Assembly (NCBI RefSeq): GCF_013085255.1
Contig: NZ_JABFCX010000002.1
Location: forward strand, 434,001-498,000
DNA: 64,000 nucleotides
Reading direction: 5' to 3'
Source: Parvularcula mediterranea
GTDB taxonomy: Bacteria > Pseudomonadota > Alphaproteobacteria > Caulobacterales > Parvularculaceae
Shown here: positions 37,664 to 40,763 of the stretch, piece by piece
Layout: every line of letters begins with the position of its first letter
Position numbering within the stretch: position 1 is the stretch's first letter
Notes under the pieces: generated by a model
The model's input: only the letters and a program-made list of their open reading frames with translations
Databases searched by the model: none
Told to the model about the DNA's origin: nothing
Program-made: the position numbers and the translations under genes

Positions 37664-37696
37664 GGCGTTCTTCTCCCATGGCCGCGAAGGGCCTTT

Positions 37697-37712
37697 GACT
37701 ACGAGTGTAGGC
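37697..37712. promoter_or_regulatory. Operator-like dyad 1 upstream of blaI-type gene
   Basis: GACTAC-GAGT-GTAGGC is an inverted repeat with one mismatch, 34 bases upstream of the repressor start. Its half-sites match those of the second dyad, 25 bases away centre to centre. The layout agrees with the TACA/TGTA-type dyads bound by BlaI/MecI proteins, with a different half-site sequence. Confidence 0.65.
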
Positions 37713-37721
37713 ATTTGCACA

Positions 37722-37737
37722 GACTACGCCTGTAGTC
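37722..37737. promoter_or_regulatory. Operator-like dyad 2 upstream of blaI-type gene
   Basis: GACTAC-GCCT-GTAGTC is a perfect 6-bp inverted repeat with a 4-base spacer, the same half-sites and spacing as the dyad at 37697-37712. Together they look like a tandem operator through which the repressor would control its own operon. Confidence 0.7.
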
Positions 37738-37799
37738 AATAGAGTTCCATCCTACCTGTCCGGGGAGTCATGTGGGCAGGACATCAAGCCTTGCAACGC

Positions 37800-38792
37800 C
37801 TAGCGTTTAGCCGTTTCCGATCCCTGCACCAGAGGCCCGATGACATCGATCCGGTCGGTCATGATCGTGCCGGAGAAGCTGTCGGGAAGAAGCGCAAGGT
37901 CTTCTGCGGTATCAATGCCGCTGGAGCCACCGCCGATGGACTTGAGCCTGCCCGTCACCGTCACGCCGAAGGGTGTCTCCTCGAACCGGTTTTCCAGCCT
38001 TGAGGGCCAGCCCCAATAGAGGTGCCTGAGATCGAGGGGCACGCCAATGCCCATCTCGCTGCAGGCATCAGGGACGTGCCCCATCCAGCCGCGGGCGAGA
38101 TAACCCTTGGCGCAGGCTTTGCCCTCCGCCCTGCTCGATGCGGGGATCGGTCCGCCAATCTCCCGCCAGCGCGCCAGCCATTTCGGCCCGGTGACGATGA
38201 ACAGCCCGTCGCGATCCAAGTCATTCCGCTCACTGAGATACTCGTAGAGCTTCTCGGCATCGCGCGGATTGTTGCTCTTCGCGTTGATGAAGAAACGCTC
38301 CTCCGGGAAGGCATCGAGCACCTCGCCCAAGGTCGGCACCAGTCCTACGCCCTTGCCGCGAAAGGGAAACGTCTCGCCGCCGTCAGCGGTGTAGCCGTAG
38401 CCTATGTCCAGGGCTTTGAGCTCCGCCATGCTCTTGTCGATGGTCCTGCCCGACCCTTCGGTCCGGCAGTCTACAGTCCAGTCGTGGAACACCGCAAACT
38501 CGCCATCCGTGGTCGCATGAATGTCGATCTCGACAACATCTGCGCCATAGTCGAACGCTGCGCGCATGGAGCGGATGGTGTTCTCAAGGTATTCATGCGT
38601 AGGCGGAAAGATCCGCGTCGCCGTGCAGGTCTCGTTCGTCAGGCCTTCGCGGGAATAGGTCTGCGCAACACCGCGATGGGCGATGATCTGCACCACACGA
38701 TCAGGCTTCGGCGCAAGCCATGAGGCGTTGAAAGCGTAGACGGCCGCCGCTGCCGCAATGAACAGACCAAGGCCGTATCGAAGTCCGCGCAT
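37800..38792 (-). CDS. Glycerophosphodiester phosphodiesterase family protein, membrane-anchored
   Basis: TIM-barrel GDPD-type protein. An N-terminal hydrophobic segment (about residues 5-24) is a signal anchor or signal peptide. The active-site motif IAHRG (37-41), then ENTIRSMRAAFDYGADVVEID and HDWTVDC, give the His-Arg-Gly, Glu and Glu-x-Asp and second His expected. The C-terminal part is less conserved, so the substrate may not be a simple glycerophosphodiester. The ATG at 38792 has AAGGGGAG upstream, and in-frame codons before it are not supported. It has 330 residues and diverges from the ABC-F gene. Confidence 0.87.
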   Translation of the reverse strand: MRGLRYGLGLFIAAAAAVYAFNASWLAPKPDRVVQIIAHRGVAQTYSREGLTNETCTATRIFPPTHEYLENTIRSMRAAFDYGADVVEIDIHATTDGEFAVFHDWTVDCRTEGSGRTIDKSMAELKALDIGYGYTADGGETFPFRGKGVGLVPTLGEVLDAFPEERFFINAKSNNPRDAEKLYEYLSERNDLDRDGLFIVTGPKWLARWREIGGPIPASSRAEGKACAKGYLARGWMGHVPDACSEMGIGVPLDLRHLYWGWPSRLENRFEETPFGVTVTGRLKSIGGGSSGIDTAEDLALLPDSFSGTIMTDRIDVIGPLVQGSETAKR

Positions 38793-38882
38793 GAGCTCCC
38801 CTTCCCGATGAAACGCTAAGGCGGTCGCCCCGGAACGACAACACTTCCCCTCGCAGCGCTTCCCCGCTAACCGCGCCCTCCC

Positions 38883-40763
38883 ATGCTGCACATCAACGAC
38901 CTCACCTACCGCATCGAAGGGCGGCCGCTCTTCGAGCAGGCGACCGCCATGATTTCCGACGGCTGGAAGGTCGGGTTCACGGGTCGCAACGGCACGGGGA
39001 AATCAACGCTCTTCAAGCTCATCCGGGACGAGATCAGCCCGGACGATGGCTCGGTTTCGATCCGTCCCGGCGCAAGGGTTGGCGGGGTCGCGCAGGAGGC
39101 ACCTGCGACGCAAAGCAGCCTCCTCGAAACCGTCCTCGCTGCCGACGAGGAGCGCCACGGCCTCCTCGCCAGAGCCGAAACAGAGACCGACCCGATGGCC
39201 ATCGCGGAGATCCAGACGCGGCTCGCCGACATAGAAGCGCACTCGGCAGAGGCGCGCGCGGCGGCAATCCTCTCAGGGCTCGGCTTCTCCACCGAAGAGC
39301 AGGCCAAACCGTGTGCGGAGTTTTCAGGCGGCTGGCGGATGCGCGTGGCGCTAGCGGGTGTCCTCTTCGCCAGGCCGGACCTTCTCCTCCTCGATGAGCC
39401 GACCAACTATCTCGACCTCGAAGGCGCGGCATGGCTTGAGAGCTATATCGCGAAATATCCGTATACCGCTCTCATCATCAGCCACGATCGCGGGCTTCTG
39501 AACCGGTCGGTGACGCACACCCTCGCCCTCGATCATAAGAAGCTGTCGATCCACAATGGCGGCTACGACACCTACGCAAGGCGCAGGGCCGAACAGGCAC
39601 GCCTCGCCTCCATGCAGGCCGAGAAGATCGAGACCCAACGCGCCCACATGCAGGCGTTCGTCGACCGCTTCAAAGCCAAGGCATCCAAGGCGAAGCAGGC
39701 CCAGAGCCGGGTGAAGGCCATCGAAAAGCTCGCCTCGGTCGACCTCCCCGTAGCCGAGCGCACGACGCCCTTCCACTTCCCCTCCCCCAAGCCCGTCATG
39801 GCCCCGCCGATCGTCAGGCTGGAGCAGGCTGACATCGGTTATGAGGAAGGCAACCCGGTCCTGAGGAAGATCACCCTGCGGATCGACTCCGAAGACCGCA
39901 TCGCCATCCTCGGTGCCAACGGTCAGGGCAAGTCCACCCTCGTCAAGGCCGTTTCCGGACGATTGGCGGTAATGGAGGGCAACCTCTACAAGCACAAGAA
40001 GCTCAAGATCGCCTATTTCGCCCAGCACCAGCTCGACGAGCTGAAACCGAAGCAGTCCCCTTTCGAGCATGTCCGGGCCCTGATGCCCGATGGCACCGAG
40101 GCAGAAGTCCGCTCACGGACGGCTCAGCTCGGCTTCGGCGCACAGAAGGCTGACACCAAGGTCGAGAAGATGTCTGGCGGCGAGAAGGCGCGGCTGCTCT
40201 TCGGCCTCATCACCTTCGATCATCCGCACATGATGATCCTGGACGAGCCAACGAACCACCTCGACATCGACAGCCGTGATGCGCTGATCGAGGCGCTGAA
40301 CGCCTATGAAGGGGCGGTACTCCTCATCACCCACGACGCCCACCTCGCAGAAGCCGTGGCGGACCGTCTGTGGGAGGTGAAGGACGGCGATGTCCTGAAG
40401 CTCGACGACAGCCTCGACGATTACCGCGCCCGGGTGCTGGCGGCGGAGAAGAAAGAAACGAAGGCCGAGAAGCCGCAAGGCGAGACCGCAGCCGACCGCC
40501 GCCGTGATGCTGCAGAGAAGCGCAAGGCGCTCCAGCCGCTCAAACGCAAGGTCACGGACGCCGAAAAGCTCATGGAGAAGCACTCCGCGCTCATCGAAAA
40601 GCTCGATGGCGCCCTCGCCGATCCCAGCCTTTATGAGAAAGACCCAGCCAAAGCCGCGAGCCTCAACAAGGATCGCGCCGACGCCGTGCGGTCATTGGAG
40701 GCTGCTGAGGAAAGCTGGCTCGAGGCCAGCGCGGCTTATGAGGAAGCCCAGGCCGAGGGCTGA
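38883..40763 (+). CDS. ABC-F family ATP-binding protein
   Basis: Two fused ABC ATPase domains without membrane segments, the layout of ribosome-associated ABC-F translation factors. Domain 1: Walker A GRNGTGKST, signature FSGGWRMRVALAG, Walker B LLLLDEPTNYLD. A linker rich in Lys/Gln (SKAKQAQSRVKAIEKL) is the P-site-tRNA interaction motif region. Domain 2: GANGQGKST, MSGGEKARL and MILDEPTNHLD. The charged C-terminal coiled coil (about 520-626) places it near the YheS/Uup-type proteins. It has 626 residues. A role in antibiotic resistance is not indicated. Confidence 0.93.
   Translation: MLHINDLTYRIEGRPLFEQATAMISDGWKVGFTGRNGTGKSTLFKLIRDEISPDDGSVSIRPGARVGGVAQEAPATQSSLLETVLAADEERHGLLARAETETDPMAIAEIQTRLADIEAHSAEARAAAILSGLGFSTEEQAKPCAEFSGGWRMRVALAGVLFARPDLLLLDEPTNYLDLEGAAWLESYIAKYPYTALIISHDRGLLNRSVTHTLALDHKKLSIHNGGYDTYARRRAEQARLASMQAEKIETQRAHMQAFVDRFKAKASKAKQAQSRVKAIEKLASVDLPVAERTTPFHFPSPKPVMAPPIVRLEQADIGYEEGNPVLRKITLRIDSEDRIAILGANGQGKSTLVKAVSGRLAVMEGNLYKHKKLKIAYFAQHQLDELKPKQSPFEHVRALMPDGTEAEVRSRTAQLGFGAQKADTKVEKMSGGEKARLLFGLITFDHPHMMILDEPTNHLDIDSRDALIEALNAYEGAVLLITHDAHLAEAVADRLWEVKDGDVLKLDDSLDDYRARVLAAEKKETKAEKPQGETAADRRRDAAEKRKALQPLKRKVTDAEKLMEKHSALIEKLDGALADPSLYEKDPAKAASLNKDRADAVRSLEAAEESWLEASAAYEEAQAEG

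Follow-up and report, generated by a model that had tools for sequence, protein, structure and literature searches.

Introduction

Pairs of a BlaI-type repressor and an M56 metalloprotease are commonly interpreted as antibiotic-resistance switches. The BlaI regulon of Mycobacterium tuberculosis was reportedly set out by Sala in 2009. Operators of the CopR-CopY type follow the consensus RNYKACANNYGTMRNY, and BlaI and MecI are named as users of the TACANNTGTA core (PMC7253601). The two operators of CopY mostly lie 24-39 bases apart, with a mode of 26, and a two-layer block has been proposed for CopY and, with reference to other work, for BlaI, in which the distal site covers the -35 box and the proximal site occludes RNA polymerase (PMC7253601). 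In Bacillus licheniformis several operators, OP1-OP3, precede the repressor operon; BlaI of this organism and MecI of S. aureus come off their operators in the presence of millimolar peptidoglycan dipeptides (PMC3305447). BlaI_0696 and BlaI_1845 of Clostridium thermocellum recognise paired inverted repeats, GTCTAT or GACTAT, in front of their own operons, as established by DAP-seq and EMSA (PMC8457756).

Here we analyse a blaI-M56 locus in a 64-kb stretch of the Parvularcula mediterranea genome (the window, 64,000 nucleotides). It resembles the CopR-CopY/cop box system in having consensus operators in a pair, and among the NCBIfam models the repressor scores best with CopY_TcrY, although at 89.6 bits this match stays under the cut-off of 121.95. 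The translated repressor contains no cysteine and so lacks the CXC metal motif by which a CopY is recognised; furthermore, its partner is a protease, whereas that of CopY is a copper exporter. With BlaI/MecI of Staphylococcus and B. licheniformis the locus shares the Penicillinase_R fold, an M56 partner in the operon, multiple operators and the KACANNYGT core. It differs from the bla and mec systems in having no adjacent beta-lactamase gene, no penicillin sensor domain that we could find and an outer operator flank of GAC/GTC. The paired inverted repeats upstream of the repressor's own operon are also seen for the two C. thermocellum proteins, but the regulons of those comprise three operons and one operon, and the available sections of that report mention no TonB-dependent receptor or GIN targets (PMC8457756).

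Results and discussion

The sequence-only reading had placed two matched dyads ahead of a BlaI-type gene, and re-reading the sequence confirmed their coordinates, their sequences and the 25-bp distance between their centres (Table 1). On the forward strand the proximal dyad, O2, reads GACTACGAGTGTAGGC and the distal dyad, O1, reads GACTACGCCTGTAGTC. O1 is a perfect hexamer palindrome and O2 carries one mismatch (GTAGGC). Both sit in the 136-bp gap between blaI and an open reading frame for a GDPD-type phosphodiesterase (37800-38891, minus strand). A simple scan for the sigma-70 consensus upstream of blaI returned no full promoter. A longer blaI frame of 140 residues from GTG 37720, which would have made O2 intragenic, was dropped; aligned homologues start at about ATG 37663.

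Table 1. Features of the blaI-M56 locus in window coordinates
Feature	Position	Strand	Remarks
BlaR1-like M56 metalloprotease, 819 aa	34849..37308	-	PF05569 E 1.6e-39; HELTH zinc motif; overlaps blaI by 11 bases
blaI-type repressor, 121 aa	37298..37663	-	start codon 37663-37661; PF03965 E 1.5e-31
Putative ribosome-binding site GGGAGAAGA	37669..37677	-	read off the sequence
O2, proximal operator dyad	37697..37712	-	gene-strand sequence GCCTACACTCGTAGTC; second dyad in 29/30 blaI upstream regions
Putative weak -10 box AAATGC	37711..37716	-	17-bp spacing, touches O2; placed by spacing only, poor TATAAT match
O1, distal operator dyad	37722..37737	-	gene-strand sequence GACTACAGGCGTAGTC; in 30/30 blaI upstream regions examined
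Putative -35 box TTGACT	37734..37739	-	overlaps O1; TTGAC[CT] in the same register in 30/30 family promoters

The PF03965 model covers the whole repressor (residues 3-115 of 121) with 109.6 bits against a cut-off of 22.6. The protein also matches MecI, whose structure has been solved (1okr), over its full length with an E value of 2.9e-14, and its recognition-helix region DWSDKTVKTLLARL resembles the MecI counterpart DWSPKTIRTLITRL. The NCBIfam penicillinase repressor models, which are narrow (type 'exception'), all score below their cut-offs: BlaI_of_BCL 66.9 of 180 bits, MecI_of_mecA 52.8 of 250 and BlaI_of_MRSA 46.3 of 250. Coverage of the entire protein by PF03965, together with operators that fit RNYKACANNYGTMRNY, places the locus, by sequence, among Penicillinase_R repressors with their operators. 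The half-site had been thought to differ from the staphylococcal TACA. In gene-strand orientation both dyads have the form KACANNYGT and fit RNYKACANNYGTMRNY, and the recognition-helix region is MecI-like; the supposed difference therefore does not hold.

Could the dyads be chance palindromes, or belong to the upstream GDPD gene as a hairpin in its RNA or as its terminator? Allowing up to two mismatches, GACTAC-N4-GTAGTC occurs twice in the window against 0.67 expected, a count of at least two being reached by 13 of 100 shuffles. The 3.2-Mb genome holds 24 such sites compared with 172 for the reversed control and about 33 expected (scaled from the window). At this stringency the motif frequency is at chance level, which is the point in favour of chance palindromes. 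Good sites are scarce: the genome contains two perfect ones and four with at most one mismatch, these four being the window pair, one site upstream of an amidohydrolase lipoprotein gene and one upstream of a TonB-dependent receptor (TBDR) gene. The scattering of the motif all over the genome that the sequence-only reading had named as evidence against itself is thus seen for the chance-level sites with two mismatches and is absent for the good ones. A weight matrix trained solely on blaI promoters from other genera scored the window dyads at 22.4 and 17.7, while the maximum among 508 control stretches of 250 bp from the window was 7.9. The published CopR-CopY consensus fits twice in the 64 kb, both times at the window dyads. 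What exceeds chance is the scarcity of good sites, their pairing, their promoter position, the matrix scores and the upstream conservation at all 30 blaI loci compared. No terminator-like site was found, and the sequence, spacing and promoter register of the dyads are conserved across those 30 loci; we regard a chance or hairpin origin as having a negligible probability.

A protein search gave blaI-like matches in 52 of the 62 family genomes. For the 30 family loci with the highest scores the upstream DNA was compared, leaving aside the close matches in G016, G027:C31, G032:C184, G012 and G031 as well as the weak matches. The distal dyad is present in every one and both dyads in 29, with a spacing of 25 bp in 19 pairs, 24 in eight, 23 in one and 22 in one. 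TT precedes the distal dyad in 30/30, forming a TTGAC[CT] -35 box that shares its last four bases with the operator. The exact consensus RNYKACANNYGTMRNY is fitted by 51 of the 59 family dyads; the other eight deviate. The locus with a single dyad is L041 of G053, and the two-dyad match of that genome appears to stem from L093, whose pair is not at a blaI gene.

Across the whole order, 108 of 398 genomes match a strict two-dyad pattern; the reversed control gave zero among the matches listed. Thirty of these pairs, all from outside the family, were retrieved. In 29 the pair sits 41-64 bp 5' of a blaI homologue (41-60 percent identity), with a spacing of 25 in 28 and 24 in one and with TTGAC in 28 of the 29. 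The remaining pair (L167) has no blaI nearby.

Within the family the dyad pair tracks the close homologue of the repressor. By manual tally, 33 of the genomes have a blaI match at E <= 1e-20, and 26 of these, G053 among them, carry the pair; none of the 29 genomes lacking such a match does. This bears on whether the main protein at the sites is a different regulator, for instance the paralogue BlaI2 encoded in the same genome (G000:C2:566722). The presence of that paralogue speaks for this idea, but the palindromes in the 250 bp upstream of BlaI2 include no GACTAC dyad, GTGACAACTGTCGC being recognised there by eye, and its recognition-helix region differs from that of BlaI. Moreover, the pair is missing from all 19 family genomes that have only weak blaI-like matches, presumed paralogues (best E about 3e-9 to 2e-14). 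These observations suggest that BlaI2 is a paralogue with a different operator, and binding mainly by another regulator is very improbable. BlaI2 (L017:134-1854, own contig 2 at 566722) adjoins an M56 protease that carries a fused M23 peptidase domain.

The proposal of a dimeric BlaI-type repressor acting on its own promoter is strongly supported by the conservation of the dyads, their spacing and the -35 overlap, and by the restriction of the pair to family genomes with a close blaI. We conclude, with a probability of roughly 0.9, that the dyads serve as autoregulatory operators for the BlaI encoded just downstream, which is predicted to bind them. One BlaI dimer would occupy each dyad; that on the distal dyad would cover the -35 box in its 3' portion and that on the proximal dyad would touch the -10/start region, so that RNA polymerase would be kept off the blaI-M56 operon. 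A signal at the extracytoplasmic part of the M56 protein would lead the protease to cleave BlaI, which would derepress the operon together with a small regulon, mostly served by single dyads. In the own genome this regulon probably comprises the TBDR, a DUF2807/GIN protein and the amidohydrolase lipoprotein. We infer dimer binding, repression, cleavage, regulon and signal alike from sequence comparison.

The residues H242, E243 and H246 of the HExxH motif, along with E283, are invariant in all 32 aligned M56 proteins, one of which is only 324 residues long. C-terminal to the protease part, Pfam gives no domain in the window protein. A DUF2807/GIN domain is found in 3/32 of the proteins; a few of the other tails give weak matches and the rest look charged and variable. 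In the M56 protein of G150 (third family, L222:1822-3300) ankyrin repeats replace the usual tail. As an alternative to cleavage, a ligand in the cytoplasm, for example a peptidoglycan dipeptide, could free BlaI from the same operators. The dipeptide-driven dissociation of B. licheniformis BlaI and S. aureus MecI is a precedent (PMC3305447). The overlap of the M56 gene with blaI and the invariant zinc-site residues point to proteolysis instead, and we consider ligand release in its place improbable; the two modes are compatible with one another.

A wider regulon was sought in the genus, where at most one mismatch gives 29 sites in ten genomes, not far above the 16 for the reversed pattern; 13 are blaI dyads and 16 lie elsewhere. 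Perfect matches account for 13 of the 29 (seven at blaI, six elsewhere) against 0/16 control sites in the same genomes and 1/41 in 17 genomes. The location of 21 non-blaI sites, the 16 from the genus and five further, was assigned by an automatic rule in which deep means more than 150 bases from both frame ends. Eleven are intergenic, seven lie near the end of a predicted frame and three are deep inside; among the control sites (16 of 41 retrieved), one is intergenic and ten are deep. The intergenic excess (Fisher p 0.004) is a rough figure, since two pairs of neighbouring sites were counted as four and the control loci were shorter. Given the small excess over the reversed control and the three deep intragenic sites, the case for non-blaI targets rests on position, orthology and site quality. 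A TTGAC box is also formed by 10 of the 26 target sites tabulated.

Two targets recur. A site lies 89-145 bases 5' of the matched start of a TBDR gene (its Plug domain marginally above the Pfam cut-off) in the own genome (G000), G052, G053, G054 and G057, that is, in five of the eight blaI-positive genus genomes. The homologues in G051, G055 and G056 (35-44 percent identical, possibly non-orthologous) have no site, nor do the one homologue in the blaI-negative G058 and five additional TBDR copies in G000, G052 and G054. Likewise five of the eight, namely G000, G052, G053, G054 and G056, have a site at -64 to -70 of a gene for a DUF2807/GIN protein; none is present at the homologues in G051, G055 and G057 or at the only one in G050, which is blaI-negative. 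The GIN promoters of four Parvularcula genomes (L123-L126) have in common a second, CTATCTCGTTT-like stretch about 15-20 bp 3' of the dyad. The amidohydrolase lipoprotein is a single target, present in the own genome only; the other nine genus genomes hold no homologue at E 1e-30, so that conservation cannot test it. Further single targets are a patatin (G018), a DUF2937 protein (G053) and unnamed proteins. Pfam gave no match for the targets L095, L099, L200 and L207 and none above cut-off for L093. Of the 20 own-genome sites with two mismatches, C1:743603 and C1:780264 were retained by position.

Additional sites were checked in ten genomes outside the family. They stand 5' of a TBDR in G102 and G209, of a GIN protein in G113 and of unnamed proteins in G074 and G148; in G148 the site at 2698722 is upstream of the blaI-M56 operon of that genome. 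In two genomes of another family the TBDR genes with a dyad (L201, L202) adjoin cell-wall/division-type genes, which we take from their translations to be ddl and ftsQ. Several candidates were set aside. The G062 site (L205) lies inside an AcrB-type efflux gene, and those in G058 (L105), G012 (L074) and G015 (L075) are deep in long frames; all four were taken as chance. G058 and G015 are without a close blaI, and G012 has a blaI match of E 1.7e-25. An own-genome site (L022, C1:1388687) was inspected for open reading frames and discarded. On this evidence a regulon including TBDR and GIN genes is probable, our confidence having been lowered slightly after three further coding-region sites were added.

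The nature of the inducing signal can be approached through the protease and the predicted targets. If the locus were a classical beta-lactam resistance switch, a BlaR1-type sensor would detect beta-lactams and a beta-lactamase would be induced. The homology of BlaI and of the M56 protein fits such a switch, as do the beta-lactamase-fold PF00144 genes directly 3' of a single dyad in G054 (L098:2997-4150) and G044 (L104:1274-3048). PF00144 also includes many esterases and peptidases. No bla gene occurs in the operon or the scanned neighbours, and at E 0.01 no penicillin-binding or transpeptidase Pfam domain was detected in 32 M56 partners (the window protein and 31 others). The NCBIfam blaR1_generic model covers only the protease part of the window protein, with 62.6 bits where the cut-off is 400, and the recurring targets are TBDR and GIN proteins. 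Repressor, operator and protease thus resemble those of BlaI-BlaR1, whereas the sensor domain that defines a BlaR1 was not found. As no penicillin-binding sensor domain was found, the signal is probably not a beta-lactam, and a classical resistance switch is an unlikely reading. We infer an envelope signal instead.

A more specific and distinctly speculative possibility, to which we give little weight, is that BlaI-M56 is an envelope-monitoring switch, in which the exterior of the M56 protein would report on GIN-domain or TonB-receptor assemblies at the surface and cleavage of BlaI would release exactly those genes. A hint of such like-domain sensing comes from the GIN domain on three of the 32 M56 proteins, together with the operator-bearing GIN gene in G113. 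In that genome, which belongs to another family, the M56 protein (L206:3462-5720) ends in DUF2807/GIN and a separate GIN gene (L204:2268-3014) carries the BlaI operator.

Conclusions

The operator half-site is of an already known type; the predicted wider regulon of TBDR and GIN genes is new. In the open literature we found no publication describing such a BlaI regulon, judging from titles and the openings of abstracts (the term BlaI also matches names like Blair). The same core of repressor, operator and protease recurs across an order without a detectable penicillin sensor. The operator is predicted also to mark outer-membrane and surface genes, which makes the regulon testable, and such loci should not be annotated as beta-lactam resistance.
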